From contig NZ_JACHIE010000004.1 of NCBI RefSeq assembly GCF_014207635.1, positions 1-64,000 on the forward strand: a DNA stretch of 64,000 bases, read 5' to 3'. The notes under the pieces are model-generated. The model was not told the DNA's origin. It did not search any database and worked only from the letters and a program-made list of their open reading frames with translations. The DNA is from Acetobacter lovaniensis (GTDB taxonomy: Bacteria > Pseudomonadota > Alphaproteobacteria > Acetobacterales > Acetobacteraceae). Position 1 is the first letter of the stretch; every line of letters starts with the position of its first letter. This document shows positions 1,034-64,000 of the stretch, in pieces. The position numbers and the translations under genes were made by a program.

Positions 1034-1050
1034 TCGCAGGAATAAAAAAT

Positions 1051-1073
1051 CTAGCCTGACGACATCAGGCTGG
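1051..1073 (+). terminator. Putative hairpin terminator after the lipoprotein gene
   Basis: Arms 1051-1059 and 1065-1073 pair over 9 bp with one G-T wobble around a 5-base loop, 17 bases after the lipoprotein stop. The following T content is weak (CTTTC), so termination efficiency is uncertain. Confidence 0.5.
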
Positions 1074-4900: not shown

Positions 4901-6993
4901 CCTGGAGCAAAGATGCCGTTGGCAACGCACAGGCAGACATCACTACACGAGACCCGGTTTTTCCCGACCTGGGATTGCCACGATTCCTCGCCCCAGGGGA
5001 TACGGCACAGGCACAGGTCTCCATCATCAATGTTGATGCGCCATCAGCTCCTTACGAGATCCAGATCACCACGGATGGGCCGCTCCGTGTTCTTGGCTCC
5101 GGCACACTCAGCGCCCCTGTCAAACCCGGTGAGCGCGCTGACCTGCGTGTTGCGCTGGCTGCCACCCCCACCCTGCCGGACCGTACCGCCATTGCGCATG
5201 TCCATCTTACATTACGTCGATCCGGCTCATCAAAAGCGCTGCTGACGCGAAGCTGGCCCATCGGCATCCGGCTGGCGCATGTTCCGCTGACCGTCAGCCG
5301 GACTGCACCGCTCCCACCCGGTGGCCACAAGACATGGGACCGCACGGAACTGGCGGGCTTCAACCCGGCAGACGCGCGGATAACCCTCAACATCTCCGCA
5401 TCGGACGGTCTTGATACGGTCGGGTTGCAAGAATCCCTGCAATCCAGCGTCTGGGGGGATTCTGATACACTGGCGGCTCAGGCTCGTGCGCTGCTGCAAC
5501 AAGGCAACCCGGCCTCCTCCGAGACTCACGACCACAGCGACACTCCGGGTAAATCCATCCAGTCAGCCATCAATACGCTTTTTGATCGCCAGAACCCGTC
5601 AGGTGAGATTGGCCAGTGGGACCGCTCAGATGGCCTCAGCCTCCCTGATGATCTGGACTATCTTGCCGATTTCCTGATCCGGGCAAAAGCCGCTGGCTAC
5701 ACCGTGCCGGAGGACCGGCTCGGCCTGCTGCTCGACCATATTGAAAGCGAGCAGCTCCAGTCTCAAGGCGTCGATGATGATGATAGTGAAAGGCAGGCAG
5801 AACAGCTGAATACTCGCGCTTACGCGGCGTACGTGCTGGCCCGTGCTGGTCGCCTCCACCCTGATGCAATCCATACGCTCGCGGCCTCGCTCGTCGCGCG
5901 GCAGGATGGTACCCGTGTCAGCTATGTCTGGGCTGACACGGCTGGCTCCAATGCACAGGCCAATCCTCTGGCCCTTGGGCATCTCGCTGTCGCACTCGCA
6001 ATGGATGATGCACCGAAGGACAACAGCGCGACATCGCCAGAAGCACTGCTGGACGCAGCCATCGCGGCACTCGGGCCGCCCCGCATCGGAAAGCCGGATC
6101 TGTGGGATTACAGATACTGGACCTACGTGCGCGATCTGGCCGGGCTTGCTGCCCTGACCGCCGAAGCGCATGACGACCGGCGCACCCACCTGCTCATCGA
6201 GCGGTTTGGCAAGCTGATTCTATCGCCTGATACGCTGACAACCGCAACCAGAACGGCCCTGCTCGAAGCCGCCAGCGCTCTGAACAAGGATACTGAGGGA
6301 CGGAGTGTGCGTGTGCAGGGGCGCCCTAACGCCACACCGCTGCGCCTGCCGCTTGCCTATCCGTTTGAGTCCGCTGCACTCGGAAAAGGTCTTCAGGTTG
6401 AAAATACCGGCAGGAAGATGCTGTTCAGCACCCTGACCGTGCAGGGTGAGCCAGCCGGGAATGTCAAACCTCTCACCAACGGACTGACACTGGCCATGCA
6501 GGGCTTTACCCTGACTGGCCAGCCATTTGACCTGACACACATGCAACAGAATGACCGGTTTATCGTCAGTCTCAAAGGCACGGCCCTCCATCCCGGTCAT
6601 TATCTGGTGGGCATCACCAGCCTGCTTCCTGCCGGATGGGAAATCGAGAGCATTGTGTCTCCTGGGGATGCCGCACCTGACGACCATGACAGGGACAACG
6701 ACGACCATGACGGGGACAACACTGAAAACGACAGCACAAAGCCCCCTTACGCTTTTCTGGGCACACTCAGTAGCACCGAACATGCGGCCGCGCTGGATGA
6801 TCGGTTCAACGCTTCGGTAAGCTTCACAACGCAGTCTCCAGACCTTGCAGCGCGGAGTTTCCATGTCGCCTACATCGTCCGCGCCATTACGCCGGGCCAC
6901 TTCACTCTGCCTGAAGCGATGGTCAGCGCACGGAGTCTTCCGAGCCTGATGGCGCGCACGGCATCAGGGACTGTCGAGATCACCGCACATTGA
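1918..6993 (+). CDS. Alpha-2-macroglobulin family protein (YfhM/YfaS type)
   Basis: A 1691-residue exported protein. A TTG start at 1918, 9 bases after AGGG, yields a signal peptide (LLLSSLSLVALPALYLAP, cleaved near ARAASA). The A2M_N hallmark DRGIYRPGESVHLL lies at about residues 396-410, and the central A2M domain begins near residue 958 (VALFDGPVALDSTG, then FDVPDFDGQLHLMASAW). Bacterial homologues are periplasmic protease traps partnered with PBP1C, which is encoded immediately downstream and overlapping. The thioester motif (C-x-EQ) expected in the helical domain is absent. The corresponding region near residue 1175 reads VGLQESLQSSVWGDSDTLA, so covalent trapping is unlikely and it resembles thioester-less YfaS-type members. 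An Asp/His-rich insert lies at residues 1585-1606. The family assignment is secure; the trapping mechanism is inferred. Confidence 0.93.
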   Translation: MSPRLLLSSLSLVALPALYLAPCSRAASAESAPFAFQRTSLDATGEHPEICLHFNQNLNARETATLAHSVHLSPESAFTPRVENDTFCLGKLAFGQSYTMKVDPDFTSADGEYLAAPLTLSARFGRRDARVGLTGDGFILPGRTTGHTPALAIETVNVSTVRLHVFRVAAYQQFPGTDHIDNTLPDLNQTSFDFYTFQNLLDTTMREIWHGTMAIDHAPDQSVTTGFPLAETIGAGQNGLYLVTVEDAATPPEKSPVETALKRGNTNSDLLQSRPIAAHWVNLSDLGLTMLRGEDGLTVSARSLMSGQPTPDVTLTLRARDGGTLATVTTDASGLGHFDAPLLRGTMADRSSVLLASKGEDFGFLHLDRQWFDFSEQHLEGAVSPFQGNSRALVQPDRGIYRPGESVHLLTLLRDRVGQAIPDAHPVLVLYRPDMMEERRIPLTGAAEGGYATTLPLSASAPTGLWRADILLDPSLPAIGSARFSVQDFVPPSIEASFKPPSSAIAEQTVVIDASVRFLYGAPGANLKSDSSYKLVPATDPIPDHTGWAFGFENEEPPSDSGDISADPTDQEGHTQLTFTPDIPQDLTRPLALDVRAGFLDPMGRRVGEHFTIPVRRTAPLIGLHVATDASASMGSAVIPIDLAGFAPDNSPVAIGKIHWTLSRVNHIYNWSHTSDNGWTFSSHTVDVPMRSGDLVTDAKGTARITPTLDWGEYRLSAVPSESGGVTGSSLRFQVGWGGSGDASTPDHLPLSVRDTHIMSGGSTVIHIGGGFAGQAQITLATDRVLNTRFVDVPKEGLDVPVTATPDWHSGAYALVTLYRPLNSPSGLRPHDPVRAVGVTWIGVNQDTHRLNVALDVPGTVTPRRRVTIPVTVQASQGLPVGQVQVAVSAVDQGILNLTHFTPLNLFDALYGRPRLGLDMLDNYGSLLLSDAKNGQIRSGGDAASNGSGADGPPVRTTESVALFDGPVALDSTGHGTLSFDVPDFDGQLHLMASAWSKDAVGNAQADITTRDPVFPDLGLPRFLAPGDTAQAQVSIINVDAPSAPYEIQITTDGPLRVLGSGTLSAPVKPGERADLRVALAATPTLPDRTAIAHVHLTLRRSGSSKALLTRSWPIGIRLAHVPLTVSRTAPLPPGGHKTWDRTELAGFNPADARITLNISASDGLDTVGLQESLQSSVWGDSDTLAAQARALLQQGNPASSETHDHSDTPGKSIQSAINTLFDRQNPSGEIGQWDRSDGLSLPDDLDYLADFLIRAKAAGYTVPEDRLGLLLDHIESEQLQSQGVDDDDSERQAEQLNTRAYAAYVLARAGRLHPDAIHTLAASLVARQDGTRVSYVWADTAGSNAQANPLALGHLAVALAMDDAPKDNSATSPEALLDAAIAALGPPRIGKPDLWDYRYWTYVRDLAGLAALTAEAHDDRRTHLLIERFGKLILSPDTLTTATRTALLEAASALNKDTEGRSVRVQGRPNATPLRLPLAYPFESAALGKGLQVENTGRKMLFSTLTVQGEPAGNVKPLTNGLTLAMQGFTLTGQPFDLTHMQQNDRFIVSLKGTALHPGHYLVGITSLLPAGWEIESIVSPGDAAPDDHDRDNDDHDGDNTENDSTKPPYAFLGTLSSTEHAAALDDRFNASVSFTTQSPDLAARSFHVAYIVRAITPGHFTLPEAMVSARSLPSLMARTASGTVEITAH

Positions 6994-9008
6994 GGGCTTC
7001 CCGCCGCCTCGTCAGAAACTGTACACTCGGCCTGCTGCTCACCAGCCTCATTCCGGCTGGTCTGCTGGTGGCCGACCATTTTAATCCGCCAGACCTGCAT
7101 CGGGCCGGGCAAGCCGCCCTTCTTGTTCAAGCCCGCGACCATACACTGCTTGACGGCCATACAAGCCGCGATGGCTTCTGGCGTATGCCGGTTGAAAGCC
7201 AGGATGTTGACCCGACCTACATAAAACTTCTGATGGTAACGGAAGACCACCGTTTTGAAAGCCACCCGGGCGTTGACCCGCAAGCCCTTGCGCGTGCCAT
7301 CTGGCAACTGGCCCGGCGTGGTCATATTGTCTCGGGTGGTTCCACGCTGGCCATGCAGACAAGCCGCCTCCTTACTCCGCACCGTCATACATGGGGCGGC
7401 AAGCTGCGCGATATCCTGCGCGCCCTTCAGCTTGAATGGCGTTTCGGGCGTCGGGGTGTATTGAACCTTTACCTCACGCTGGCTCCTGAAGGCACGAATA
7501 TCGAAGGCATCCGTGCGGCATCCCTGCTCTATTTCGGACATGAGCCCAGCCATCTGACACCCACCGAGGCCGCGTTTCTTGTGACTTTACCCCGGCGGCC
7601 CGCCGCACTCCGCCCGGACCGCCACCCTGACGCCCTGCTGAACGCTGCACACCGCACACTACAACGCGCCACTTCATTACAGCCTGTTGCATGGCCAACA
7701 CCAGACACACGCGGCGTACCGCATGACGCCCCTGAACTCGCTGGTCATTTTCTTAGCGCAGGGCGCAACGGCGTGGTGGTGACAACGCTTGATGCAAGGC
7801 TCCAGCGCAACGCACGGCAGGTGCTTGCCAGCCACCCTGCCCCGCTGCGTGGAACCTTTGCTGCACTGATTGTCGACCATGAACGGCAGATCGTTGCATG
7901 GGTCGGAGGAGCCGAGCATAAGGCTCCGGGCAATGCAATAGATGCTGTTTTGGCGCCCCGCTCCCCCGGCTCCGCACTCAAGCCGTTTGTCTATGGCATG
8001 GCGTTCGAAAAAGGCTGGATGACACCCCACACACGTGTGCGCGATAGCCGACTTGCCATTAGCGGCTATGCCCCCAGGGATTTTGACCATGCTTTCCGGG
8101 GTGAAACCACCGTGAGTGAAGCCCTTCAGCTTTCACTCAATGTGCCTGCCATTCAGGCGCTGGAGCGGGTTGGCCCCTCCCGGTTCATGGACCGCCTCTC
8201 CGCCTGCGGTGTGCGGTTGCGACTGCCAGAAAACCCGGATGGCACACAAAGCGCACCGAGCCTTGCGATCGTTCTCGGGGGAGCAGGCATCTCACTCCAT
8301 GACCTGACAATGCTGTATGCGGCACTCGACCATAATGGTCACGTCGCCCCCCTACGCCGTGAACCAACAGACCTGAAATCGGCAGGCCCTGCATCCGAGA
8401 CAGTCCTGCTGTCCAGCAGAGCAAATGCCGATATTCGTACAATCCTGCGCGGCACCGCTCCACCAGCTGGCGTCCCATCATGGGAGGGAATTGCCTTCAA
8501 GACAGGCACATCCTACGGCAATCGTGACGGATGGGCGATGGCCTCCACCCCACAGGCAACAGTCGGTGTCTGGGCCGGACGCCCGGATGGCACTGCCTCT
8601 CCCGGGCTGACAGGACGGGATACGGCAGGACCAGTGCTGGCAGTTCTTCTCTCTCTGCTTTCTTCACCCCTGCATACATCAGCCCCGCCAGCCAGTGCTC
8701 AACTTCATCGTGCTGTTGCAGTCCTGTCACCTGCTCTGCGTACCCTGCAACAACAGCAGGCACCGCAGATCATCTTTCCGCGCAATCATTCCGAAATTGA
8801 AAGCCGCTCTTCCGGGGGCACGATGCTTCCCGTCGGGTTGGAAGGCTCTGGTGGCCATCCGCCCTATCATTGGTATATCAATGGCATTCCGCTGGAGGTG
8901 CCGCCCGGTGCGCAACCGTCCTGGACGCCCGATGCACCCGGCTTTGCTCACATCACTCTTGCGGACGCGCAAAACGCCCATGCGACTATTGATATTCGTG
9001 TGCGGTAA
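6990..9008 (+). CDS. pbpC: Penicillin-binding protein 1C
   Basis: A 672-residue bifunctional peptidoglycan synthase of the PBP1C type, anchored by an N-terminal membrane segment (LGLLLTSLIPAGLLVADHF). The glycosyltransferase (GT51) domain shows EDHRFESHPGVDP, with E85 as the expected catalytic glutamate, followed by GGSTLAMQTSRLL. The transpeptidase domain has S328-x-x-K (SALK), S-L-N at 382 and KTGTS at 504. The C-terminal tail (GGHPPYHWYINGIPLE) matches the BiPBP_C domain typical of PBP1C. Its TTG start overlaps the macroglobulin stop (TTGA), implying translational coupling. This gene pair is a known bacterial arrangement in which the protease inhibitor is thought to protect the wall when PBP1C repairs it. 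Confidence 0.95.
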   Translation: MRASRRLVRNCTLGLLLTSLIPAGLLVADHFNPPDLHRAGQAALLVQARDHTLLDGHTSRDGFWRMPVESQDVDPTYIKLLMVTEDHRFESHPGVDPQALARAIWQLARRGHIVSGGSTLAMQTSRLLTPHRHTWGGKLRDILRALQLEWRFGRRGVLNLYLTLAPEGTNIEGIRAASLLYFGHEPSHLTPTEAAFLVTLPRRPAALRPDRHPDALLNAAHRTLQRATSLQPVAWPTPDTRGVPHDAPELAGHFLSAGRNGVVVTTLDARLQRNARQVLASHPAPLRGTFAALIVDHERQIVAWVGGAEHKAPGNAIDAVLAPRSPGSALKPFVYGMAFEKGWMTPHTRVRDSRLAISGYAPRDFDHAFRGETTVSEALQLSLNVPAIQALERVGPSRFMDRLSACGVRLRLPENPDGTQSAPSLAIVLGGAGISLHDLTMLYAALDHNGHVAPLRREPTDLKSAGPASETVLLSSRANADIRTILRGTAPPAGVPSWEGIAFKTGTSYGNRDGWAMASTPQATVGVWAGRPDGTASPGLTGRDTAGPVLAVLLSLLSSPLHTSAPPASAQLHRAVAVLSPALRTLQQQQAPQIIFPRNHSEIESRSSGGTMLPVGLEGSGGHPPYHWYINGIPLEVPPGAQPSWTPDAPGFAHITLADAQNAHATIDIRVR

Positions 9009-9215
9009 AATGAAATCCTCTTGCACTTTCAATTCATTTTATAACCAGTTTTCCATTTTTCAGCCAATCCGCCTGATGTGGGCTAACATCGCTCACTACA
9101 ATGTCGCAGGTTTCAGAGCGGTCTGATTTGCGGACGCGAATAACGAAAACTATTGCCGACCGTCCGCCTGCGGGAAACTCGAACGGCCCAGCGTATGACC
9201 GAGATGTAGGCGAAC

Positions 9216-9255
9216 GCAGCCTGTCTGCTCTCTTATCATTGAGCAGACAGGCCGC
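9216..9255. repeat. Large inverted repeat between convergent genes
   Basis: Arms 9216-9230 and 9241-9255 pair over 15 bp with one mismatch around a 10-base loop. The inner 12 bp are perfect. It sits between pbpC (+) and the aldolase gene (-), so it may end both transcripts. There is no T-run on either side, so it is not a canonical intrinsic terminator. Nothing else was recognised in 9009-9320. Confidence 0.55.
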
Positions 9256-9320
9256 TTAGGGAGCAAATGGAATGTCGGCTTTCGATTGATGAAATTCGCA
9301 AGCAGACGTCGCTATTTATC

Positions 9321-10214
9321 TTAAGATGCGGTGCATGCTTTCAGAGCATCCATGGTTCTCTTCCGGTCTTGCAATGGTAAAGGCAAAATTGGACGGGGAG
9401 GCTGGGCGGACGACAATTCCAGAAGATTGATGGCAGCATAAGCAACACGCAGGCTTCCAAATTTCCGAAAAAGTGTCCACATCGGCTCCAGCATCTGCTG
9501 ATACTGGTTTACGGTACAGGCATCGCCCTCCTGTGCGGCTGTCACCATCGCTTTGGCCAGCTTTGGCAGGAAACCGCCCAGAACGCTAAACCAGCCATCA
9601 CTTCCGGCAAGCAGGGCTTCCGCCGCAATCCAGTCTCCACTGTAGCCTATAGCGAGTTTTCCAATCGGGCTGGATCGTAGTGCGGCCAGTTCCTGCGCGA
9701 TCGTGCCTTCTGCCGGAGCGGGCATTTTGACAGCAGCGATGTTGGGAACGTCCGCCAGCCGTTCAAGCAGTTCACGACTGAAACTGAAATGGGTTGTACT
9801 GGGATTGTTGTAGATGCAGAGCGGCAGAGACGTAACCTCGGCTACAGCCTTGTAATGCTGATAGGCTTCTTCCTGCGTCAGTGGCGTGTAGGATACAGGC
9901 GCCATCAGCAGACCGTCGGCACCTTCGGCCGCGGCATCGCGTGCAAGGCTCTGGGCATCGTCGGTGCGCAGCGTGCCGATCCCCACGATCAGCGGCGTTT
10001 TCCCTCCGACCGTTTTGACGGCTGCGCGAATGGCGCGGCACCGCTCGGTGCGACTCAGATAAGCATAGGTTCCGGTGCTGCCTAACAGGCCAATGGAGTC
10101 CACACCGTTGCTGGATAGATGTGATGTCAGGCGCATGACACCCTCCATATCCACCACACCATGTTCGTTGGCGGGCGTAATGGGGAAAGCGGACAGACCG
10201 TGAAAGATCGACAT
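9321..10214 (-). CDS. DapA-family (class I) aldolase/lyase
   Basis: A 297-residue cytoplasmic TIM-barrel enzyme of the dihydrodipicolinate synthase/N-acetylneuraminate lyase superfamily. The Schiff-base lysine is K163 in IAAVKMPAP and the catalytic tyrosine is Y135 in CIYNNPS. The pyruvate-binding signature, normally GTTGE, reads GSTGTY at 45-50, so pyruvate may not be the usual substrate and true DapA activity is doubtful. Its ATG lies 2 bases after the stop of a truncated aminotransferase gene (TAACAATG), showing they were once a coupled operon. That gene is now cut by an IS remnant, so the aldolase has probably lost its native promoter. The substrate is unknown. Confidence 0.85.
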   Translation of the reverse strand: MSIFHGLSAFPITPANEHGVVDMEGVMRLTSHLSSNGVDSIGLLGSTGTYAYLSRTERCRAIRAAVKTVGGKTPLIVGIGTLRTDDAQSLARDAAAEGADGLLMAPVSYTPLTQEEAYQHYKAVAEVTSLPLCIYNNPSTTHFSFSRELLERLADVPNIAAVKMPAPAEGTIAQELAALRSSPIGKLAIGYSGDWIAAEALLAGSDGWFSVLGGFLPKLAKAMVTAAQEGDACTVNQYQQMLEPMWTLFRKFGSLRVAYAAINLLELSSAQPPRPILPLPLQDRKRTMDALKACTAS

Positions 10215-10216
10215 TG

Positions 10217-10426
10217 TTAGACCTTGTTACCGGATGGAACATTGACGCCCATTGACTTCAGGTAGCGCTTGACGTTGCGGGCTGCCTGCCGGATGCGTTG
10301 TTCGTTTTCCACCAGAGCAATCCGGACGCCTTGACCATTTGCACCATATCTGACGCCTGCGGCAACGGCTATTTTGGCGTGAGTCAGAAGCTGTTTTGAG
10401 AATTCCAGACTAACGGGATGGGCCAG
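10217..10426 (-). pseudogene. 3' remnant of an aminotransferase gene (class I/II fold)
   Basis: The minus strand reads SLEFSKQLLTHAKIAVAAG, then VRIALVENEQRIRQAARNVK, and a TAA at 10217. This is the C-terminal end of PLP-dependent aminotransferases of the alanine/LL-diaminopimelate type, where SLEFSK…AKVAVSPG and the VRIALVENE…RIRQAxRNIK helix are conserved. Only about 70 codons remain. Upstream of about 10427 the reading passes into IS3-family sequence, so the active site is lost. Confidence 0.75.
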
Positions 10427-10720
10427 TGTAAGTGGAAGGGAAACTCAGGCGAACATGGAGGCATTGGGGGCAGTGACCCTGCCCCGAACGTGCCCTCAGT
10501 TTTGAGTTAGGGCCTGATGGCGTTGTGGTCAGCCCACCATGCGTCGATGACTGAACGGACGTGACAGAGATTGCGGAACAGATGCTCATTGAAGCATTCG
10601 TCATGGAATCTGCCGTTGAAACTCTCGACGAACCCGTTCTGGTATAGCTTACCCGGCGCGATGTAATGCCACAGCACCGGGCATTACTCCTGCCAGATCA
10701 GCGAACCATTATACCAAATG
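10427..10720 (-). mobile_element. IS3-family transposase (OrfB) remnant
   Basis: The minus strand encodes [21 protein letters not shown], then [13 protein letters not shown] and [13 protein letters not shown], the C-terminal part of the IS3 OrfB integrase core including the terminal catalytic Glu region ([11 protein letters not shown]). It stops at TAA 10507 and carries an in-frame stop upstream of CPVLWHY, so it is dead. The edge adjoining the aminotransferase begins with TG at about 10427, consistent with an IS3-type terminus (TG…CA). The left end and a matching inverted repeat were not found. Sequence from 10721 to 10877 is unassigned. Confidence 0.75.
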
Positions 10721-10877
10721 ATGGTCTCCTCCGTATCGACTTACTATCCGCATGGAAGCCTGATTGGCTCAGCCATTACGTGACTCATAAAAATGTAAGC
10801 CATGTTTTACCCACTTCACGAAACAATCCGGCGAACAGTGTTCGCTCGGCATGTCCTTCGGCGCATAAATCAACCCA

Positions 10878-11438
10878 TTACGCACTGATAACACGATGGA
10901 TCGTTGACTTGCTGACCTTGAACAAAAGAGCGACTGCCCGCAGAGACATCCCTTCATCAAGCAGGCGCCGCACATGTATTTTCTGAAGTTTTGACAGAGA
11001 ACAGGGACGTCCCAGTTTTCTCCCGGCAGCTCTTACCGCGTCCAGCCCAGCACGTGTCCTTTCCCTGATCAGTTCACGTTCAAATTCCGCTATAGCCATC
11101 AGGATCGTCAAAAACATTCTTCCATTGGCCGTCCCGGTTTCCGCTCCGACGTTGAGAATGCGCACACGGATACCTTGCGCATCCAGCTCACGCAGAAGGG
11201 CCAATACGTCCATCGTATCACGCCCCAATCTATCAAGACGGGCGACAACAAGACTATCTCCCTGCCCCAGACGCCCCAGTAAGGTGGACAACTCAAGCCG
11301 AGCACGCGCGGGCACGGCTCCTGACACGACCTCAGTAATAATCGTTTCTATACCCTCACGCTGTAACGCAAGAATCTGAGGCTCATTAACCTGATCCTCC
11401 GTTGAGACCCTCGCATATCCATACCGCGCCACGCCCAT
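10878..11438 (-). CDS. Serine recombinase (resolvase/invertase family)
   Basis: A 186-residue protein of the small serine recombinase family. The N-terminal catalytic motif YARVSTEDQ carries the nucleophile S12. The arginine-rich VARLDRLGRDTMDVL follows, with the long E-helix AIAEFERELIRERTRAGL and a C-terminal helix-turn-helix (MSLRAVALLFKVSKSTIHRVI). It appears intact. Such proteins resolve transposon cointegrates or invert DNA. No transposase of the Tn3 family is nearby, so it is probably a survivor of a decayed element. Its divergent upstream region (11439-11685) is shared with the XRE regulator gene. Confidence 0.92.
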   Translation of the reverse strand: MGVARYGYARVSTEDQVNEPQILALQREGIETIITEVVSGAVPARARLELSTLLGRLGQGDSLVVARLDRLGRDTMDVLALLRELDAQGIRVRILNVGAETGTANGRMFLTILMAIAEFERELIRERTRAGLDAVRAAGRKLGRPCSLSKLQKIHVRRLLDEGMSLRAVALLFKVSKSTIHRVISA

Positions 11439-11685
11439 TACCCCTCAGCATCCCATCTGACATCTGATCGACGCAGAATGTCACTCTCTAGAACACCTCC
11501 TTATCGCGCCAAAACGCAATTGCAAACATATTTGGTTCCATATTGCCTTATTTATGTATATCTACGAACAATTTTTCGGTGTCAGATGCCCAAGTTCATT
11601 TGACAACCAACATGGGAACTGCAATTTTAGCGCAACATGGAAGTGCAGACGCAAACACGTCCCGCAACCGACAAGGATGACCGAA

Positions 11686-11988
11686 ATGTCCATTCTGCTG
11701 GCTTCACAATGCAGAGCCGCGCGCGCCATGCTTGGACTCTCCCAAAAGGAGCTTGCTCAAAAAGCCGAGGTTGGCTCCAGAACACTGGCTGATTTTGAAA
11801 CGGGAACACGATCGCCACACCCTCGTACCCTGAAGGCGATCCGCGAGACTCTCTGCTCGCTCGGGATTGTTTTTCTGGATGCTGAAGGTGGCCTTGGTCC
11901 TGGTCTGCGCCTGGATTGCGAAAAGTCATTCACAACCATTTTCCCACCAGGCATGGAACTGGCAACACTATTCACCCCAGAAGAGTAA
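11686..11988 (+). CDS. XRE-family DNA-binding regulator
   Basis: A 100-residue protein with an N-terminal helix-turn-helix (CRAARAMLGLSQKELAQKAE, VGSRTLADFETGTRSPHPRT) and then LKAIRETLCSLGIVFLDAEG, a common layout for small XRE-type regulators. The start at ATG 11686 is chosen because AAGGA at 11673-11677 lies 8 bases upstream. An ATG at 11677 and a much longer upstream frame lack spaced ribosome-binding sites. It sits between the two recombinases inside the mobile island, with no toxin-like partner directly beside it. Confidence 0.85.
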   Translation: MSILLASQCRAARAMLGLSQKELAQKAEVGSRTLADFETGTRSPHPRTLKAIRETLCSLGIVFLDAEGGLGPGLRLDCEKSFTTIFPPGMELATLFTPEE

Positions 11989-12056
11989 ATACCATCTACG
12001 CGACCGAACCGTAGTTATGACAGTAACAAAATCAGGCAGCCTCTTGTAAAGAGGAA

Positions 12057-12269
12057 TACCTCGCTCTGTATTCCGCCAAAGAAGGCCGGAAATCAAAACC
12101 CTCTTACGACTGGCATGTGTATAAAAAACACCATCTGATCAAAAACATGTTCGCAACACTGAAAGACTGGCGGCGTATTGTCACCAGATATGACCGCCGC
12201 GCTCATACATGCATGTCCATAATCCACATCGCGGCAGACTTTTATTCTATCTCAAAGAATGAATTCTGA
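12057..12269 (+). mobile_element. IS5-family transposase remnant
   Basis: The plus frame reads SYDWHVYKKHHLIKNMFATL, then KDWRRIVTRYDRRAHTCMS and IIHIAADF before TGA at 12267. This is the C-terminal DDE segment of IS5-group transposases (H-Y/L-K-x-R-H-x-I-E-N-x-F-x-x-L-K…R-x-A-T-R-Y-D). The catalytic glutamate position (IEN) reads IKN here, and no N-terminal two-thirds is present. Inactive fragment. Confidence 0.7.
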
Positions 12270-12667
12270 GCTTAAACCCCCGCAATAATGAACGACAGCC
12301 CTATAAGCGCGTTAACTCCTTAAAGGGTCTGATTATGCCGTCAGGGGCAACGCTGACGGCACCATTCATCCACCACCATCACAGCAAGAATTCTCTGACC
12401 CTTTTTCTGCCGTGGACGAAACGTGACCTCGTTTCCATAAAATTGCACATTTCTGGCTGGCAGCCTGATCGTGACAAAGGAAAATAGGCTGCACAAAAAC
12501 TTTCAGGGCGTCCGGAAACACTAGTTTTTGCGACACTTCGAAGCCTAGCCGTGAATGGTTATCAGAAGGTTAATGGAAAGAAAATATTTTCAGCCTGAAA
12601 AAAAATTAAGTTCCTCTTTATGATGTTTCTTTTCCTTCTTCTTTTCATGCGGAAACAAAGTGAAACT
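12270..12667. repeat. Non-coding mobile-island spacer with an 8-bp perfect inverted repeat
   Basis: No gene was recognised in this 398-bp stretch. A perfect hairpin (arms 12337-12344 and 12353-12360, GCCGTCAG/CTGACGGC, loop 8) lacks a T-tail. A 12-base block at 12537-12548 recurs with one change at 13304-13315 (see separate entry). The right third becomes visibly A+T-rich as it approaches the second recombinase gene. Confidence 0.4.
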
Positions 12668-43968: not shown

Positions 43969-45015
43969 TCAGGCTGAGGCAACGCGCTTGAAATGTCCAA
44001 ACGTTGCTGTTTTGCGTGCCCCTGCGGGGAGCTTGAGATCCCCTTTTTCAACCTTGCGCACCAGATACTGGTATGTCTGCAAGGCCTGCGCCCACATGTG
44101 CTCGCCAATGGTGATGGTTTCGTAGGAAGCCGCATCATCCTTGGCAAAAGCCGGTAACGGGCGGATCTGGGTATGGTAGTCACAGGCGTAAAAGAGCGGG
44201 AAGGAATAGCGTTCCTCGGCAACCTTGCGTACCCTGTGTGCTGTTGCCACAAACTCGCCCGCGGTCATGACCTCAAGCATGTCACCAATATTGACCACAA
44301 AGGCTCCGGGGATGGGCGGCGCGTCAATCCAGTCTCCGTGCCCGTTCATCACTTCCAGCCCCGGCTTGTCTGCCAGAAGGATGGTAAAACATTCGTAATC
44401 CGTATGGGCGCCAATGCCAGAAGCATCCTGCGCCTGTGCGTCATACGGGTAATGGATCATACGCAGTTTGGAGGGCGGAAAATTGGCTACGGAATCAAAG
44501 TAGTTTTCCTCCAGCCCCAGAGCGAGCGCAAAACCGCTGAAGAGCTTGCGGCCCAGATCAAAAACCGCACGATAGTAAGCCTCCGCCGCAGCCCGAAAAC
44601 CGGGAAGCTCAGGCCAGTTATTGGGGCCCAGCAGCGGGGTTCCGGCCTGTACAAGCGGATGATTGGCTGGAACTTCGTAGCCAATATCAAACGCTTCCTT
44701 GTGATCCGGACGGCCTGCGGAATACACTTCCTCCCCTTCTGGCACGAACCCTTTGTGCGTGGCAGAAGTGCCGATGTAGTATTCCATCTTTTTTTCAAAA
44801 GGCTGGGCAAAAAAATCACGCGCAGCCTTGCGCACACCCTCGATCAGGTCATCGGGCACATTATGCCCGGAGATAAAGAGAAACCCGACATTGCGCGCAG
44901 CATCACCCAGCTTGTCCGCTACGGCCTGACGTTGCGCAATATCAGGGCTGTACAGACCACTGATATCAATAACGGGAATACGGGTGAAAGTTTCAGTTGT
45001 GGTGGAAACGGACAT
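43969..45015 (-). CDS. 2-oxoglutarate/Fe(II) oxygenase, isopenicillin-N-synthase-like
   Basis: A 348-residue non-haem iron oxygenase. The N-terminal DIOX_N region ([31 protein letters not shown]) precedes the double-stranded beta-helix with iron ligands H204, D206 and H260 ([18 protein letters not shown]) and the 2-oxoglutarate-binding R269 (ERYSFPLF). The ATG at 45015 follows AAAGGAA, whereas the codon just upstream is TTG. The family hydroxylates or desaturates small molecules; no substrate can be named. It is cotranscribed with an isomerase-like protein and an aldolase, and a second enzyme of this type is fused to an AraC regulator at 58.6 kb. Confidence 0.92.
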
Positions 45016-45030
45016 CAACCCAGTTCCTTT

Positions 45031-57113: not shown

Positions 57114-58514
57114 TTAATTGCTGGCCAGATTTTTATCTGACTTTGAAGGAGGCAAAACATGATTGAAAAGAAGGCTAAGGAAAATAGCCGTAAGAGCACC
57201 AACGGTAATCCCGCTCCCGAACACAATCCGCACCCATGATGGGAGGCTATCTGTAATATGCGGTTGAGCCGTAACAAGCATGCTCAATGCAACGCTGGCC
57301 CCCGCAATAATGATGTTACTATGATCATCAAAATCAACCTGACTTAAGATCTGAACACCGATCATTGCGACTGTTGCAAACATGGCAAGGGCAGCGCCCC
57401 CCAGTACCGGAGCCGGAATACTGGCGACAAGAGCCGCTGATACCGGAAAACTGCTGAGAATGATCATAATCACAGAGGCGGACACAATAACCCAACGGCT
57501 CCGCACGCCAGTCATACGCACCAGCCCAACATTCTCTGCATAACATGTATAAGGGAATGAGTTGAAAATACTGCCCAGAACAGTCGCCAAACCATCTGCC
57601 TGAATAGCAGAGGCAATATCATCAGCATGAATATCACGCTTTACAATTGAGCCAATGGCATAAACACCGGCAGATGTTTCGATCATGGCGATGATCATAA
57701 CAACTGTCATCGACAGAATTGGAGCGATATGAAAAACAGGAAGCCCAAAATAAAATGGCTGAGTATAAGCCACCCAAGGCAGGGCATTATAATCATGCAC
57801 TTTCATGTCACCCAGCATCATGGCAATGCCCGAACATAGAAGCAAACCCAACAGCACTGCTATGGTGGAAAAAAACCCGCGTAACACTCTTTGTAAGATG
57901 ACAATCAGAAAAAAAGTACCCAACGCATAATAAATATTCCTGATATTAACAGAGCTCTGCATAATGCTCGGGCTCTGGCCACCAACAATATCATTTGCGG
58001 CTATGGGAAGCAGGGCAAGCCCGACGATAAGAATGGTTGATCCCATGACCACTGGCGGGAAAAACCTTACAATTTTGGAAAAATATTTTCCCGCTACAAA
58101 CGCGAACAGACCCGCTATGAGAATTGCACCGTAAATCTCTCGCAATCCTTCTATTCCGCCACCTGCGGCTACACCAATGGTGACCATCGGCACCATGGCT
58201 GTAAAGGTAACACCCTGTAACAGCGGTAAACGGACACCAATTTTTCCAATACCAACTGATTGTATTAAAGACGCAATACCACATGTAAAAAGGTCAGCAT
58301 TGATCAGGTGCAGCAGGTCATTTCTGGACAGGTTAAGTGCATTGGCCAGAATGATAGGCACAATAACCGCAGCGGCATAAAACGTGCAGACATGCTGAAC
58401 ACCATAGATAATCAGCTTGTTTAAGGGCAGCACTTCATCAACTGGATTATCCTGTGCTGATTTAGCCTTTGTTATACAACCTGACACACCTGCATTTGTT
58501 TCGCAGCACTTCAT
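57114..58514 (-). CDS. NCS2-family nucleobase permease (xanthine/uracil type)
   Basis: A 466-residue transporter with 14 expected helices. It has the NCS2 motifs GVQHVCTFYAAAVIVPIILA, LPLLQGVTFTAMVP, and IAMIETSAGVYAIGSIVKRD (substrate-binding Glu), followed by GLATVLGSIFNSFPYTCYAENVG (xanthine/urate signature N-S/T-F-P-x-T). The pattern fits purine (xanthine or urate) rather than uracil transport, though not decisively. GGAAGGAA precedes the ATG. Its gene begins 116 bases after the AraC-oxygenase fusion, so the two may be co-transcribed, linking the fusion to nucleobase metabolism. Confidence 0.9.
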   Translation of the reverse strand: MKCCETNAGVSGCITKAKSAQDNPVDEVLPLNKLIIYGVQHVCTFYAAAVIVPIILANALNLSRNDLLHLINADLFTCGIASLIQSVGIGKIGVRLPLLQGVTFTAMVPMVTIGVAAGGGIEGLREIYGAILIAGLFAFVAGKYFSKIVRFFPPVVMGSTILIVGLALLPIAANDIVGGQSPSIMQSSVNIRNIYYALGTFFLIVILQRVLRGFFSTIAVLLGLLLCSGIAMMLGDMKVHDYNALPWVAYTQPFYFGLPVFHIAPILSMTVVMIIAMIETSAGVYAIGSIVKRDIHADDIASAIQADGLATVLGSIFNSFPYTCYAENVGLVRMTGVRSRWVIVSASVIMIILSSFPVSAALVASIPAPVLGGAALAMFATVAMIGVQILSQVDFDDHSNIIIAGASVALSMLVTAQPHITDSLPSWVRIVFGSGITVGALTAIFLSLLFNHVLPPSKSDKNLASN

Positions 58515-58629: not shown

Positions 58630-60438
58630 TTAGCTCTGGTGCCCATACGTTGCCTGTAGCCTTTCCTGCAGATATTCGTAGCCACTCACAGGTGGGTAGT
58701 GCGCGCTTTCACCTTGCTGGCTGACAATTGGTTCAACCTGTGCATCCGCATCCGGGTCCAGAAAAAAGGCAATGGAATATCGCTCCCCTTCTGGGCGCAA
58801 AACACGATGGGGGGTGGAGACATACACATCGTTACTCCAGCGCATCAGGCAATCCCCAATGTTGCAGATAAACGTGCCGGGAATAAGTGGCGCATCCATC
58901 CAGTCACTCCCACGCGGGCGCACCTGCAGGCCGGACACACCATTAACGGCCAGAATGGTCACATTGCCATAATCCGTATGCGCCCCTGCCCCCGGAGCCT
59001 GGTCGGCACGTTTTGATAGAGAAGGCGGGTAACGCAGCAGACGCAGCGTTGCCATGGGGTTTTTGAACTTATCAACAAAAAAGTTCTCATCCACACCAAG
59101 GTCACGCGCAAAACCACGGTGCAAGGCCGCACCTATATCCAGACATGTTGTAAAATACGCCATCATCAGGTCCCGCCACCCCGGAAAATCGGGCCATACG
59201 TCTGCATCATCCACATTATGGGGGCTGATATTGAAGGCTTCCTTGTTATCGGGCAGGGATGTCGTATCAAGCCGCTCGACGCCCAGGCCAACATAACCCC
59301 GATTTTTGCCAAGCCTGCTCATGGCGACCTTTTCCTTGGCACTGGCAGGCTGGTTGAAGAAAATGCGTGAAGCTTCAAAAAGCCTGCTCATCATTTCAGG
59401 CGCAACACCGTGGCCGGTAATGTAAAAAAAACCGGCTTCACGGCATGCCCTGCCAAGAGCTGCAGCCACTACCTTACGCTCCGCACTGCTGCCATGCCGG
59501 AGTGCTGCAATATCAATAACAGGAATAGGGGGTACCATCGGACGTATCCTTTCAAACGCAGGACGTAAAGACAGATGCTGGTCGTCAGGCCGGCGGGTGG
59601 CGTCTCCCATAGTATGGGATGTCTGGCCATGAATACCGCGCTGCCGGATACTGCGTGGGCTCTGGCCATTCATCAGCCGGACCTCACGCGAGAGATGAAA
59701 TGCCGATCCGTACCCGGTAATATCGGCAATACTGGCAAGCGACATGTCTGTATGCCGTATAAGACGCAAAGCCGCTTGGGCCCTTACGTTACGTAAATAC
59801 CGTATAGGGGTCGTGCCCTGATGACGGCGGAACAGGTCGATCAGGTAAGGCGAGGTAACACCAGCCACGCTAGCCAGTGTCTCAAGAGATGGCTTTTCAG
59901 CATAATGCTGGTCGATATAGGATTTTGCCGCAATCAGGGAGGGCGGCATATGCCCGATAACGTCCTGCCCCGCCTCTATACGCCATGCCGCAAACAGGGC
60001 CTCGCCCAAAGCATTGCGCAATGTATCCAGCGTGGGCGAGCTATGCAGACCGCAGTTAATGCCCTCACGAAACAACGTGAGAATGCGCTGGGATGCGCGA
60101 ACCCTGTCCCCCAGAAAATCACTTCTGGCAGGTAGGGCAGACTTGAGCAGCGGTGTTTCGCACCACATCACACGGCTGCCCGGAGCGTAGGTGGAGCGAC
60201 GGCCTGTTCTGTTGATAAAAATACCGCATTCACCAGCATGCAGCTCGCGCCGGTTCCTATCAATAACCGTGCTCATGGCACCTGTTTCCAACAGGATCAG
60301 AGCAGCATAGGCACCACTGGTGACCCTGAACTCCCCTCCATCGGGGTAAGCCGTTTGACCAAACGAGAAATTGGCGCCACGCCTGATAAATGCGGTTTCC
60401 TGAATCTCTGACAGATCGAGCCTCCTCACATAGCGCAC
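58630..60438 (-). CDS. AraC-family regulator fused to a 2-oxoglutarate/Fe(II) oxygenase
   Basis: A 602-residue continuous frame from GTG 60438. Residues 1-160 look like an AraC_binding cupin-like sensor domain. Residues 165-268 form the double helix-turn-helix (SYIDQHYAEKPSLETLASVA, TPIRYLRNVRAQAALRLIRH, ASIADITGYGSAFHLSREVR). After a 33-residue linker comes a complete isopenicillin-N-synthase-like oxygenase beginning MVPPIPVIDIAALRHG at 301, with ligands H487, D489 and H544 (GAHTDYGNV, STPHRVLRPE) and 2-oxoglutarate Arg 553. An ATG at residue 301 has AAAGGA 8 bases before it, so the oxygenase may also be made separately. The fusion could be a sensor-regulator whose enzyme consumes the inducer, or two genes whose separating stop was lost. 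Confidence 0.88.
   Translation of the reverse strand: MRYVRRLDLSEIQETAFIRRGANFSFGQTAYPDGGEFRVTSGAYAALILLETGAMSTVIDRNRRELHAGECGIFINRTGRRSTYAPGSRVMWCETPLLKSALPARSDFLGDRVRASQRILTLFREGINCGLHSSPTLDTLRNALGEALFAAWRIEAGQDVIGHMPPSLIAAKSYIDQHYAEKPSLETLASVAGVTSPYLIDLFRRHQGTTPIRYLRNVRAQAALRLIRHTDMSLASIADITGYGSAFHLSREVRLMNGQSPRSIRQRGIHGQTSHTMGDATRRPDDQHLSLRPAFERIRPMVPPIPVIDIAALRHGSSAERKVVAAALGRACREAGFFYITGHGVAPEMMSRLFEASRIFFNQPASAKEKVAMSRLGKNRGYVGLGVERLDTTSLPDNKEAFNISPHNVDDADVWPDFPGWRDLMMAYFTTCLDIGAALHRGFARDLGVDENFFVDKFKNPMATLRLLRYPPSLSKRADQAPGAGAHTDYGNVTILAVNGVSGLQVRPRGSDWMDAPLIPGTFICNIGDCLMRWSNDVYVSTPHRVLRPEGERYSIAFFLDPDADAQVEPIVSQQGESAHYPPVSGYEYLQERLQATYGHQS
59547..59552 (-). promoter_or_regulatory. 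Internal ribosome-binding site within the fusion gene
   Basis: AAAGGA on the minus strand lies 8 bases before an in-frame ATG at 59538 that coincides exactly with the natural N-terminus of oxygenases of this family (PPIPVIDI). It supports separate translation of a 302-residue oxygenase from within the fusion frame. Confidence 0.7.
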
Positions 60439-60616
60439 GACCTGAATTATAGTTATGATTCCGGAATGATAAATAGCTCAAATGGCTAAAAACATGTCCA
60501 GAATTAAGATATGGCGACCAAAGAAGACACTCACACCCAAAAGATCGGGCCTGTAACAAGCACGCTGGAATCTGGAAGATGCGGGCGGCCTGAAACACCG
60601 CCCGACTGGCCCTGCT

Positions 60617-62194
60617 TTACAAAGCGCTGATCACTTTAAGCCCTGCCAAAACGGCGTTGGGAATGACGGAAGTCTCTCCCGGACGCATCATGTATTCAAA
60701 CTCAGGGGTCACTACCAGACCCGGCACGATGGGAATACCATAATACGCCTCCAGAATAGCAGAGTGAGTTTGAGGCGCATTTACATAAGCCCCCATGGAC
60801 ATGCCTGCCCACTGGCGTAATTGCTGCCCGTACGTTGTCCGGGGACTGAGTTGATAATAGGAATACATGACCCCGAACCGGTCAAACGGGCGTCCAGGAA
60901 TAATCCCCAGCAAAGAGGCTCCAAAGTAGAACTCGTTGGAAAATGTAGAATTGCTTGGTGTATTATGAATAAATCCAGCCAGTACATAGCCACCCGCCAT
61001 CTGGTGCTGACCATGACTGCGATAAACCATCTGATCCGTCTCGATATAAAACGTATCTCTGGGTTTTTCCTTATGCTTTTGCACCGACCCGGCAAACGCA
61101 GGTGGAACAATCCCGATCATATCAGCATAAGGGGAGGTATCATGCCCATATCCGATTTTGTAATGACCGGGCAGTTTACGCTCGCCAAAAAAGGGTTCCC
61201 AGGTCAGTTCCACAGGGGTCTGAATACCGGTATACGGCTCGCTCCCCCAGGCCCAGCCTGTATTATCAACCGCTTTTGGACCGATACGATACACGCCTGT
61301 TCTTAAGATCAGATCCCGCGTGGGGCGTATGCGGAATGTCCCACCCCACGATGTTTTGGGGTACACACTCCAACCCGCAGGTTCACGAATAGCCATAGGC
61401 GCGGAACACATGGTCATAAACGTGCAAAGCAACACTGATGTGGAATAGGTATGCGTGAGCGCAATACGCCCAAGGTTGATATTGATCCTCTTGTCCAGGA
61501 ACGATTTTTCCACATAAAGATCGGCCAGACGTGCTGCGGCGGGGCCATGAATACTCCAGACCTCGGTCAGCAGAACATTGCGCTCACCCACATGATCCCA
61601 CCCGACCTGCCGACCTTCGCGGTTCATAACAATTCCATGCAGGAACCAGCCATCCAGCGGCTTCCATTTCGTCAGCTTGCCCAGATCAAACAGCATGGCA
61701 ATACGAACTTCGTGCGTATAGTCCATTCCTTTTGAAAGACCACCGCTCATATTCCCCATGCCCTCCCCCTTATAGGTCAGCTCAAAGCTGAAACCATGGT
61801 TGGCCAGACGATCCCGCAGCGGTTTCAGAGAGGGCATGAGGTTCCCGAAAGCCTGCTCGGAAACATAATAACCAGCACTAACGTCTCCCCGCCGCAAGGC
61901 ATCTTCATTATGATTTAATAATGAGGAAATGCTTTCCGTCTGAAACAAAGGTTCCAGACGATCTTCCGCAATAGGCCGTTTACGTTTAACTGGCGGAGAT
62001 GCAGCGCCATTCACCCCACTGGCCGCCACTCCCACAGATAAGGGTGGGGTTTTAACCTCTTGCGCCTTCACCTTGCAGGGAAGAGCCATCACCAGCAGAA
62101 CAAGCCCAAAAGCTGCATGAGCTTTTGGCAGGAAACAGAAGATATTACACCGCAAAGCATAAACTTTGCAGCTATCATCCCAAAATGTGGGCAT
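60617..62194 (-). CDS. oprB: OprB-family carbohydrate porin
   Basis: A 525-residue outer-membrane protein. ATG 62194 has GGA 8 bases upstream; a TTG at 62206 with GGGAGG is an alternative. A long N-terminus ends in a signal-like helix (AAFGLVLLVMALPCKVKAQ). The OprB domain starts near LRDRLANHGFSFELTYKGEG and includes LHGIVMNREGRQVG, INLGRIALTHTYSTS and EFYFGASLLGIIPGRPFDRF. It ends TPEFEYMMRPGETS followed by NAVLAGLKV. OprB porins take up glucose and other sugars and are abundant in acetic acid bacteria. A 7-bp GC hairpin without a T-tail follows at 60582-60604. Confidence 0.92.
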   Translation of the reverse strand: MPTFWDDSCKVYALRCNIFCFLPKAHAAFGLVLLVMALPCKVKAQEVKTPPLSVGVAASGVNGAASPPVKRKRPIAEDRLEPLFQTESISSLLNHNEDALRRGDVSAGYYVSEQAFGNLMPSLKPLRDRLANHGFSFELTYKGEGMGNMSGGLSKGMDYTHEVRIAMLFDLGKLTKWKPLDGWFLHGIVMNREGRQVGWDHVGERNVLLTEVWSIHGPAAARLADLYVEKSFLDKRININLGRIALTHTYSTSVLLCTFMTMCSAPMAIREPAGWSVYPKTSWGGTFRIRPTRDLILRTGVYRIGPKAVDNTGWAWGSEPYTGIQTPVELTWEPFFGERKLPGHYKIGYGHDTSPYADMIGIVPPAFAGSVQKHKEKPRDTFYIETDQMVYRSHGQHQMAGGYVLAGFIHNTPSNSTFSNEFYFGASLLGIIPGRPFDRFGVMYSYYQLSPRTTYGQQLRQWAGMSMGAYVNAPQTHSAILEAYYGIPIVPGLVVTPEFEYMMRPGETSVIPNAVLAGLKVISAL

Positions 62195-62577
62195 GGCTTT
62201 ATCCAAAGCTGTAAGCCTCCCTTCCAATCCATACTGGAATAGAGGCACAACATTCCTGAATTTGAAGAATAAGGGCGCGTTTACGGCTTGCGTACGGCAG
62301 ACAAGCCCACGGTCACTTTACTCTGCTGTTTCAGGTCCGGAAGAGCATGGGACATCATTTTATCAGACATTTTTTCTTTTTCTTATGACTGCTTTTTTAC
62401 AAAATAAACCGGATTTTAAAAATTTTCAATTCACATTTTTGTCGCTTATTTGTAATAACAACCAGATATCATTCAGTCATTCATTTTTCATGACCAAAGA
62501 TATAATCCCCGTCACGCACTGACATATCTCAAATTAATTCCTCCTAATTCGTGTAATATTTTCTGCACATTCCATTC
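62195..62577. other. 383-bp spacer between porin and chemoreceptor genes
   Basis: A+T-rich in its right half, no gene recognised. It should contain the porin promoter and the chemoreceptor 3' flank. No clear intrinsic terminator. Confidence 0.4.
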
Positions 62578-64000
62578 TTATGAGAGATGAAACCCATCCA
62601 GCAGCAGCCGTAACTGCCTCGTCTCTTGCACCATGCCTTCGCTCGCCGTGGAAGTCCGTTCTGCCATGGCAGCGTTCTGTCGTGTACCTTCATCAATAGT
62701 TGCTACAGCGCCATTAACACTTTGCAATGCCGCAGCCTGCTCCCGTGCCGCGTCCTCTATTGCTTTGAGACGAGAACGAATTTCAAAAATACCAGAAATA
62801 ATGAACTTCATATCCTCTCTCGCCTCTTTCATAATGGAAGCCCCCTGACTTACCTGCACCTGAGAAGCACTGGCCAACCCACGAACATCTCTGGAGGCCA
62901 CCCCCGCGCGGTTCGCCAGTTCACGAATCTGCTGTGCAAGCACTTTAAACCCATTCCCTGCACCTGCTGCGCGAGCAGCTTCAACAGCCGTGTTGAGTGC
63001 AAGAATATTAGTCTGAATGGCAACCGCATCCATAATATCCGTAATTTTGTTAATAGCTTCAGTCGAACGTTCAATTTCCGCCATGGACTCATTCGCCCGA
63101 TCAATCATGCCACCAAAGTGCTGGATGCTCTCCAGACAGTTTGCGACAAAATTATTGGCTTCAGACACACGGCTCGCCGTGGAACTGACCGTAGCAGTAA
63201 TCTGCTCGACAGCAGCAGCGGTTTTCTCTACCGATGCCGACTGCCGTTCGGTACGCTGCGCCAGTTCGCCTGATGCAGCGCTGATTTCCTGTGTAACAAC
63301 ATCTATATTGTAAGCCGTATCACTTGCTACCTTCAAAGTAGTACGAAGAGCATGCAGGGCTGCATTCAAATTATCCCGTAATGGCAGATAAGGCTCCGGC
63401 ACATTACTCTTCATATCCCGGGTCAGATTCTGCTCTGCAATCTCCTGAAGAACAGAACCAAAACTTTCAGCGACAAACACCTGTTCCTTGGATATGGCTT
63501 CATCCCGCAATGTTGCTCTCGATTTTTCAGCTTCAGCCAGATAAACTGAAATGGTCAGATCCATTTCAAAAAGTACTGCCTTACATAAACTGCTTATCTG
63601 GTGGGAAAGTTTTTTGGGAACCATCTTTTTTTTGTCAAACAGACCACCTCCAGGCAAAGCGCTGGCAACAATGGCATGAATAAGATGATCAAGGACAAGA
63701 GCATACCCACCAATGTACCATCTGGGTTCAAGTCCAATTCTTGCATGAATACTGCCAATCTGCCCCACATTCTGAGCATATTCCAGCCCGAAACTGGCCG
63801 ATGAGATGTTTTTCCAGTGTTCCTGTTGCGCTGCCTTGGCCTGTTCAATATGTGTCTCGGACGAAAAAAACGTACTGGTTTGCGGAGTACGACGTACCTG
63901 CGTATAAAACCCGTCCAATGCCTGCGGAAGTTCCCTATCAATAATGGTTTTTATAGAACGAATAGCCTCACAGTCAGCTTCTGTCAGTCCCATGAACTGC
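62578..64000 (-). CDS. Globin-coupled methyl-accepting chemotaxis protein (5' end outside window)
   Basis: At least 471 residues. The N-terminal globin-coupled sensor domain has the proximal haem-ligand pattern H83-x6-P-R-W-Y-x-G-G-Y (IHARIGLEPRWYIGGYALVL). A helical linker (EAEKSRATLRDEAISKEQVF) and the cytoplasmic signalling domain follow, with hairpin tip TNILALNTAVEAARAAGAGN and heptad-rich arms. No membrane helices are seen, so it is a soluble HemAT-like oxygen or redox receptor. The frame stays open through the last bases of the window and homologues have a few more N-terminal residues (…F-M/L-G-L-x-E), so the true start probably lies beyond 64000. It may govern aerotaxis with the flagellin found at 13 kb. 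Confidence 0.9.
   Translation of the reverse strand, partial: QFMGLTEADCEAIRSIKTIIDRELPQALDGFYTQVRRTPQTSTFFSSETHIEQAKAAQQEHWKNISSASFGLEYAQNVGQIGSIHARIGLEPRWYIGGYALVLDHLIHAIVASALPGGGLFDKKKMVPKKLSHQISSLCKAVLFEMDLTISVYLAEAEKSRATLRDEAISKEQVFVAESFGSVLQEIAEQNLTRDMKSNVPEPYLPLRDNLNAALHALRTTLKVASDTAYNIDVVTQEISAASGELAQRTERQSASVEKTAAAVEQITATVSSTASRVSEANNFVANCLESIQHFGGMIDRANESMAEIERSTEAINKITDIMDAVAIQTNILALNTAVEAARAAGAGNGFKVLAQQIRELANRAGVASRDVRGLASASQVQVSQGASIMKEAREDMKFIISGIFEIRSRLKAIEDAAREQAAALQSVNGAVATIDEGTRQNAAMAERTSTASEGMVQETRQLRLLLDGFHLS

Follow-up and report, generated by a model that had tools for sequence, protein, structure and literature searches.

The window analysed here comprises the first 64,000 nucleotides of contig NZ_JACHIE010000004.1 of Acetobacter lovaniensis (GCF_014207635.1). 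It carries a reading frame in which an AraC-type regulator is followed, on the same chain, by an Fe(II)/2-oxoglutarate (2OG) oxygenase (Table 1).

Table 1. The fused gene, its predicted signals and its neighbours (positions in the window)
Feature	Position	Strand	Remarks
Fused AraC-type regulator / Fe(II)-2OG oxygenase ORF	58630..60438	(-)	602 codons and stop; first codon GTG
HTH_18 AraC-type DNA-binding domain	59638..59877	(-)	Residues 188-267, 80/80 profile positions (Pfam)
Linker	59539..59634	(-)	Residues 269-300, 32 codons, constant length
Fe(II)/2OG oxygenase (DIOX_N and 2OG-FeII_Oxy)	58630..59538	(-)	Pfam and alignments
Oxygenase residues H487; D489; H544; R553	58978-58980; 58972-58974; 58807-58809; 58780-58782	(-)	
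Internal ATG, start of predicted 302-aa oxygenase	59536..59538	(-)	Matches stand-alone homologue starts
AAAGGA, internal Shine-Dalgarno, probably kept from a once separate oxygenase gene	59547..59552	(-)	8 nt before the ATG
CTG codon 9, probable full-length start (594 aa)	60412..60414	(-)	CTG in 9/9 sequences
AGGAGG, putative Shine-Dalgarno for the CTG start	60421..60426	(-)	-10.0 to -11.5 kcal/mol, 4/4 Acetobacter-type
Conserved upstream block TCTTAATTCTGGACATGTTTT, candidate autoregulation site or core promoter	60489..60509	(-)	From eight fused sequences
Xanthine permease (pbuX type), downstream neighbour	57114..58514	(-)	TIGR03173 452.5 bits, cut-off 414.15
OprB-type porin, upstream	60617..62248	(-)	PF04966; same strand as the fused gene

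Both halves of the frame are recognized by Pfam above the cut-offs, the DNA-binding module by PF12833 (63.2 bits, cut-off 33.6) and PF00165 (44.4 bits, cut-off 26.6), the oxygenase by DIOX_N (residues 305-416; 98.5 bits, cut-off 27.3) and 2OG-FeII_Oxy (residues 467-562; 73.2 bits, cut-off 23). With HxD...H taken to be the metal triad and RxS the 2-oxoglutarate motif, the metal ligands are H487, D489 and H544, and the 2-oxoglutarate residues are R553 and S555. These residues are invariant in 5 fused sequences, and the corresponding columns are also invariant across the 11 oxygenases aligned. The first-pass annotation, made from the sequence of the window, had described one uninterrupted AraC-oxygenase frame with all iron and 2-oxoglutarate residues, and this description is confirmed.

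The N-terminal region of the AraC half, ahead of the HTH, is conserved among relatives; it has no Pfam match even at E 10 in the two members queried. AlphaFold2 predictions for seven sequences, including two cut copies, had a mean pLDDT of 32.5. A second Fe(II)/2OG oxygenase, which has the Pfam families of the fused one and 38% identity to it, is encoded in the window at 43969-45018 (-), and a third copy of this oxygenase type is found on contig C2 of the same genome.

Distribution and origin of the fusion

In genome and plasmid searches the fusion recurs beyond the window strain in the same two-domain form, within a small clade of acetic acid bacteria. The frame is kept in A. fabarum (98%), A. 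lambici (85%), K. nataicola and Ga. entanii (77%) and is intact end to end in six assemblies (G000, G021, G006, G238, G245, G323). Broken or cut copies are present in one MAG, A. pomorum and K. europaeus. Sister species show two overlapping frames, and a small sequencing error, deleting a stop or shifting the frame, could merge such genes and mimic a fusion. However, the same frame is found in the six intact assemblies of different species and in a complete K. nataicola plasmid, so the probability of an assembly artefact is negligible, and the joining in the window is a genuine fusion.

Within the genus of the window strain, a search of 49 genomes at E 1e-80 gave matches in nine. Five of these possess the AraC half: G000, G021 (A. 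fabarum), G006 (A. lambici), G026 (the MAG, whose oxygenase contains a frame break) and G036 (A. pomorum, where the fused gene ends after about residue 407). In G015, G018, G027 and G035 a close oxygenase is present but lacks an adjoining AraC half. For Komagataeibacter nataicola (G323) and its genus, a search of 19 genomes at E 1e-80 yielded two intact fusions (G238, G323), one cut copy (G489, its DNA identical to the K. europaeus locus), three genomes with the oxygenase only, three with separate AraC and oxygenase frames and ten without a match. From about position 7170 of the A. pomorum locus (L068) the oxygenase is cut and is followed by a recombinase-like reading (judged by eye); the cut in K. 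europaeus falls at almost the same residue.

More widely, relatives of the AraC half were detected at E 1e-20 in eight genomes of the family sample (n = 397), namely G000, the fusions G238, G245 and G323, the separate AraC genes of G436, G164 and G286, and a fragment in G177. The phylum sample (n = 398, scored with up to three candidates per genome) contained 17 genomes matching at E 1e-60, and the match ran through both halves only in G000. The search for further AraC-oxygenase fusions covered relatives of the window protein; an unrelated one could have escaped.

Among 72,556 plasmid records, five reach at least 80% coverage: three K. nataicola records, of which one is in two pieces, and two K. 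saccharivorans records in two pieces. The K. nataicola plasmid copies have no permease or further enzyme genes within the annotated stretches, which fits the expectation for a self-contained unit. A K. rhaeticus plasmid holds a related copy in two pieces. The plasmid of K. nataicola FWP-2023 (L072) has a frame break at residue 268/269, parting AraC from oxygenase, which may be real or a sequencing error.

The split sister clade (G164, G436, K. saccharivorans) has adjacent AraC and oxygenase genes overlapping in different frames, the oxygenase ATG being located a few bases before the AraC stop. The two genes of G286 are on different contigs. An oxygenase tree of 25 rows, which leaves out the MAG, A. 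pomorum and K. europaeus (oxygenase broken or cut), unites the fused and linker-relic sequences in one clade with support 94/92, just under the star of the tool, and places the split genes outside it as one group (89/98). The AraC-less G015, G018 and G035 branch between the fused clade and the split group, and G027 is near the base. The simplest reading would be that an indel in the linker joined an old adjacent pair once and that other branches lost the AraC half; the reverse order, fusion first and splitting later, may also be considered as the origin. Since unfused and AraC-less forms exist, the fusion is not required.

This distribution also bears on the earlier proposal that the oxygenase domain is a sensor, its binding of iron, oxygen or 2-oxoglutarate altering DNA binding by the AraC domain. 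Such a role would be in keeping with the location of both domains on one chain and with the retention of all cofactor residues, but the AraC half has a conserved N-terminal region of its own and is retained in the sister clade as a separate gene next to that of the oxygenase, and close oxygenases persist without any AraC half. Sensing by the oxygenase is considered very improbable.

Translation starts and the linker

The product of 602 residues predicted earlier is compatible with the open frame, but full-length translation probably begins further inside it. The GTG at 60438 has no usable ribosome-binding site. Protein conservation common to the fused sequences begins at the CTG of codon 9 (A. 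pomorum also has CTG at this position), and AGGAGG precedes it by 6 nt in 4/4 Acetobacter-type sequences. Start-site energies were computed with what is presumed to be the anti-Shine-Dalgarno sequence; the pairing before the CTG is weaker in four Komagataeibacter-type sequences (-5.5 to -7.1 kcal/mol). In G238, Ga. entanii, K. europaeus and A. pomorum a stop is located seven codons ahead of the CTG, with no ATG, GTG or TTG between them; K. nataicola has TGG in place of this stop, the count in Komagataeibacter-type sequences being 4/5. In its public annotation, the K. nataicola pKNA02 gene begins at a later ATG, which would remove conserved residues. Since the GTG has no site, the CTG has AGGAGG and the upstream stop of most Komagataeibacter-type sequences leaves no ATG, GTG or TTG before the CTG, translation of the full-length protein probably starts at CTG codon 9, giving a product of 594 aa.

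The first-pass annotation had also pointed to a well-placed internal ribosome-binding site and an ATG at 59538. Position, conservation and the predicted length of 302 aa agree with this, but the Shine-Dalgarno sequence is of no more than moderate strength (-5.7 kcal/mol, fourth among 34 in-frame start-like codons). At such a rank, Shine-Dalgarno strength was rejected as a sole pointer to the internal ATG, and the support for this start comes from conservation and homology instead. The AGG of the site is invariant in 8/8 aligned linkers. The stand-alone oxygenases of G015, G035, G027, G164, G436, K. saccharivorans and K. oboediens start at the same position, where G018 has GTG, and the annotated oxygenase of the K. 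nataicola plasmid with the break at 268/269 begins at the same ATG.

An additional line of evidence is provided by K. oboediens pKOB3 (L074), G449, G354 and G493 (L081-L083), in which the AraC half is lost and an in-frame TAA stands ahead of the intact oxygenase. Directly before the oxygenase ATG these loci retain a 39-nt linker relic, 38 nt of which are identical to the K. europaeus linker, AGGAG included. The four loci are 98-99% identical over 3.9 kb, which points to one deletion that spread, not to four. The internal start is the sole start left in this lineage. Because separate oxygenases of relatives begin there and the AraC-less lineage keeps only that start, the internal ATG is probably used for translation. 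The gene would then probably make the combined protein plus the enzyme alone, and the formerly suggested formation of two products from one gene is considered likely.

The linker has the same length, 32 codons counted between the AraC domain end and the internal Met, in the window and in 8 other sequences measured, and its frame is open in 9/9 species-level sequences extending through it. A linker stop in close relatives, which the first-pass annotation had named as evidence against the fusion, was not encountered in these nine; one K. nataicola plasmid breaks at 268/269. In the 8 aligned linkers, stops are found in 0/8 for the fused frame and in 8/8 and 5/8 for the other forward frames, frame +1 being likewise free of stops in 3/8. 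Under a neutral simulation without indels, three lineages are all stop-free with a probability of 0.059. The stop-free linker is suggestive only as a sign of selection on the joined frame; its constant length adds to it.

For the window versus A. lambici, dN/dS is 0.06 in the AraC half, 0.25 in the linker and 0.08 in the oxygenase (dS about 1 to 1.3); the values are 0.07, 0.44 and 0.08 versus the MAG and 0.07, 0.82 and 0.07 versus Ga. entanii. Linker dN/dS is 0.4-1.2 in several pairs, the top value of 1.20 coming from close Komagataeibacter pairs with few changes. Judged by these ratios, the AraC and oxygenase halves are both under strong purifying selection.

The fusion could also be neutral. 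Two genes would have been joined by chance and without harm, the oxygenase would be made from the internal ATG, and the full-length protein would be a tolerated by-product gaining nothing from one chain. The relaxed constraint on the linker, the internal start that has been kept, the unfused sister clade, the lineage that dropped the AraC part and kept the oxygenase, and the K. nataicola plasmid with its frame broken at residue 268/269 are all consistent with this explanation. It is opposed by the constant linker length and the frame open in 9/9 sequences, some of them with near-saturated synonymous sites, which suggest, not conclusively, that the joined frame is kept. Neutral joining is regarded as somewhat unlikely.

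Upstream block, neighbouring genes and substrate

Alignment of the region before the CTG in eight fused sequences revealed a block with the consensus ATCTTAATTC(TG or CA)GA(C or T)ATGTTTT, common to the Acetobacter and Komagataeibacter forms. The 19-base core of the block is exact in 32 of 136 loci (several represent the same place); these are fused-type loci with the AraC start, and no fetched locus of this kind lacks it. With 1-2 mismatches the block is located 96-98 nt before the ATG of the separate AraC gene in 4/4 loci (L059, L060, L061, L073). It is found, at up to 3 mismatches, in 0/8 AraC-less loci (L038-L041, L074, L081-L083); in L074 and L081-L083 its absence results from the deletion itself. 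In the window's genome the block is unique at up to 2 mismatches and has one more site at 3; the backward control also gave two sites. There is no second copy within the window and none before the permease.

These properties fit a site bound by the AraC part, and the block is a candidate for autoregulation; alternatively, it could be a conserved core promoter. Since the block accompanies the AraC half, whether fused or split, the self-limiting switch put forward earlier is plausible.

The pbuX-type permease adjoins the fusion in 4/4 Acetobacter-type loci (the window and three relatives). The porin is present in the window, A. fabarum and A. lambici loci and was not found in that of the MAG. 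A globin-coupled chemoreceptor (Protoglobin and MCP signalling) is encoded at 62578-63993 (-) of the window and adjoins the porin in A. lambici too.

The permease had led to the suggestion of a nucleobase or its derivative as the signal. This suggestion is weakly supported by the pbuX-type score and by one distant relative of the oxygenase in a urate cluster. That relative, a stand-alone oxygenase, is located in L091 (G774, 965-12583), a compact cluster for purine catabolism that also encodes XDH, uricase, HIU hydrolase/OHCU decarboxylase and NCS2 permease. Purine-related neighbours were counted in 18 related loci, comprising G015, G018, G027 and G035 together with 14 from outside the close Acetobacter group, and in 33 control loci around more distant oxygenases; each locus spanned 6 to 20 kb, and the fused loci themselves stood outside the count. 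Uricase, OHCU decarboxylase/HIU hydrolase and NCS2 permease occur together in 1/18 related loci, L091 itself, from which the idea came, and none of them was found in the other 17. The controls contain OHCU-like genes in 1/33 loci, XDH-like genes in 4/33 and a guanine-deaminase/allantoinase-like pair in 1/33.

A cytosine-deaminase/FAD-oxidase pair is present in 2/18 related loci, both of the same genus; this count leaves out the 3-kb L043 and the loci where the pair was first met, L076 and L077. The latter two, on Paroceanicella and Sulfitobacter plasmids, have their genes in a common order: an ABC transporter, a cytosine deaminase/amidohydrolase, an FAD oxidase, two NAD(P)H-dependent oxidoreductases, a relative of the window oxygenase and a creatininase. 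In the window's genome, the Pfam uricase family has no match and MoCoBD_2 has five.

A purine link as a rule for the oxygenase subgroup was rejected, since uricase, OHCU decarboxylase and NCS2 permease are all missing from 17 of the 18 related loci. Beside the Komagataeibacter-type copies, no permease related to that of the window was found, which also speaks against a nucleobase signal. A purine is thus only weakly indicated as the signal. Thymine dioxygenase matches the oxygenase at 7.6e-38 and is not its nearest relative; an N-heterocycle is the first candidate for the oxygenase substrate.

Interpretation and known systems

The preferred reading, held with moderate confidence, is a regulated enzyme encoded in one gene, which would yield a fused regulator-oxygenase and a free oxygenase, the AraC part acting mainly on its own gene. 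An AraC-type regulator gene would once have overlapped head to tail with the gene of the Fe(II)/2OG oxygenase under its control, and a linker indel would have brought the two into one frame. One mRNA could then be translated into the full-length protein (about 594 aa, from CTG codon 9) and the free 302-aa oxygenase (from the internal ATG). The AraC part would bind the block upstream of its own start and control mainly its own gene, the trigger being presumably a small molecule bound by the AraC N-terminal region. It may be guessed that this small molecule is the oxygenase substrate, the removal of which turns the gene off again; by a similar guess, the neighbouring xanthine permease may import it in the Acetobacter form.

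A one-gene circuit in the full sense, in which the CTG-started regulator-oxygenase at its own promoter senses and destroys its inducer, the internal start gives free enzyme, the regulon is the one gene and plasmids carry the unit between species, is considered doubtful.

The split pairs of K. saccharivorans (CD178_RS15330/RS15335), G164 and G436 are closest in kind to the fused gene. Their regulator belongs to the same AraC subfamily (54-56% identical to the AraC half of the window) and their oxygenase is the same (67-69%), the gene order is shared and the upstream block is present at 1-2 mismatches. However, they are two genes in different overlapping frames, and the AraC start is ATG. The solved structures nearest to the oxygenase, PDB 9ovh (6e-57) and 6jyv (5.2e-52), align over the whole catalytic region. 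Their chains are stand-alone (332 and 339 residues) and contain IGDML.R or LGDML.R, whereas the subgroup of the window oxygenase mostly has IGDCLMRW.

An AraC-type DNA-binding part and an enzyme are likewise combined on one chain in Ada and Ada-AlkA, as described in part of the text of PMC1839093. Ada differs in that its regulatory domain binds zinc and is combined with an alkyltransferase or AlkA domain; none of these was found in the fused ORF, for which Pfam (E 0.001) gives HTH and oxygenase families only. According to excerpts of PMC5882156, AraC/XylS proteins occur with 106 kinds of companion domain, being similar to the fused protein in that an AraC-type DNA-binding domain is joined to another domain; the terms 'oxygenase' and '2OG' do not occur in the main text of that paper. 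Overlapping gene pairs with fused relatives elsewhere are already known as well (excerpts of PMC3711429). An AraC-Fe(II)/2OG oxygenase fusion is not reported among the literature matches listed, as judged by title and the start of the abstract. Regulator-enzyme fusions are thus known, as in Ada; the combination of AraC with this oxygenase, accompanied by an unusually complete evolutionary series, was not found in these literature searches.

Living relatives hold the overlapping pair, the fusion with the old start and the enzyme alone behind a linker scar. This series makes it testable how regulator-enzyme fusions arise and what, if anything, is gained by them. If the autoregulation is true, the fused gene would be a compact natural one-gene feedback switch.
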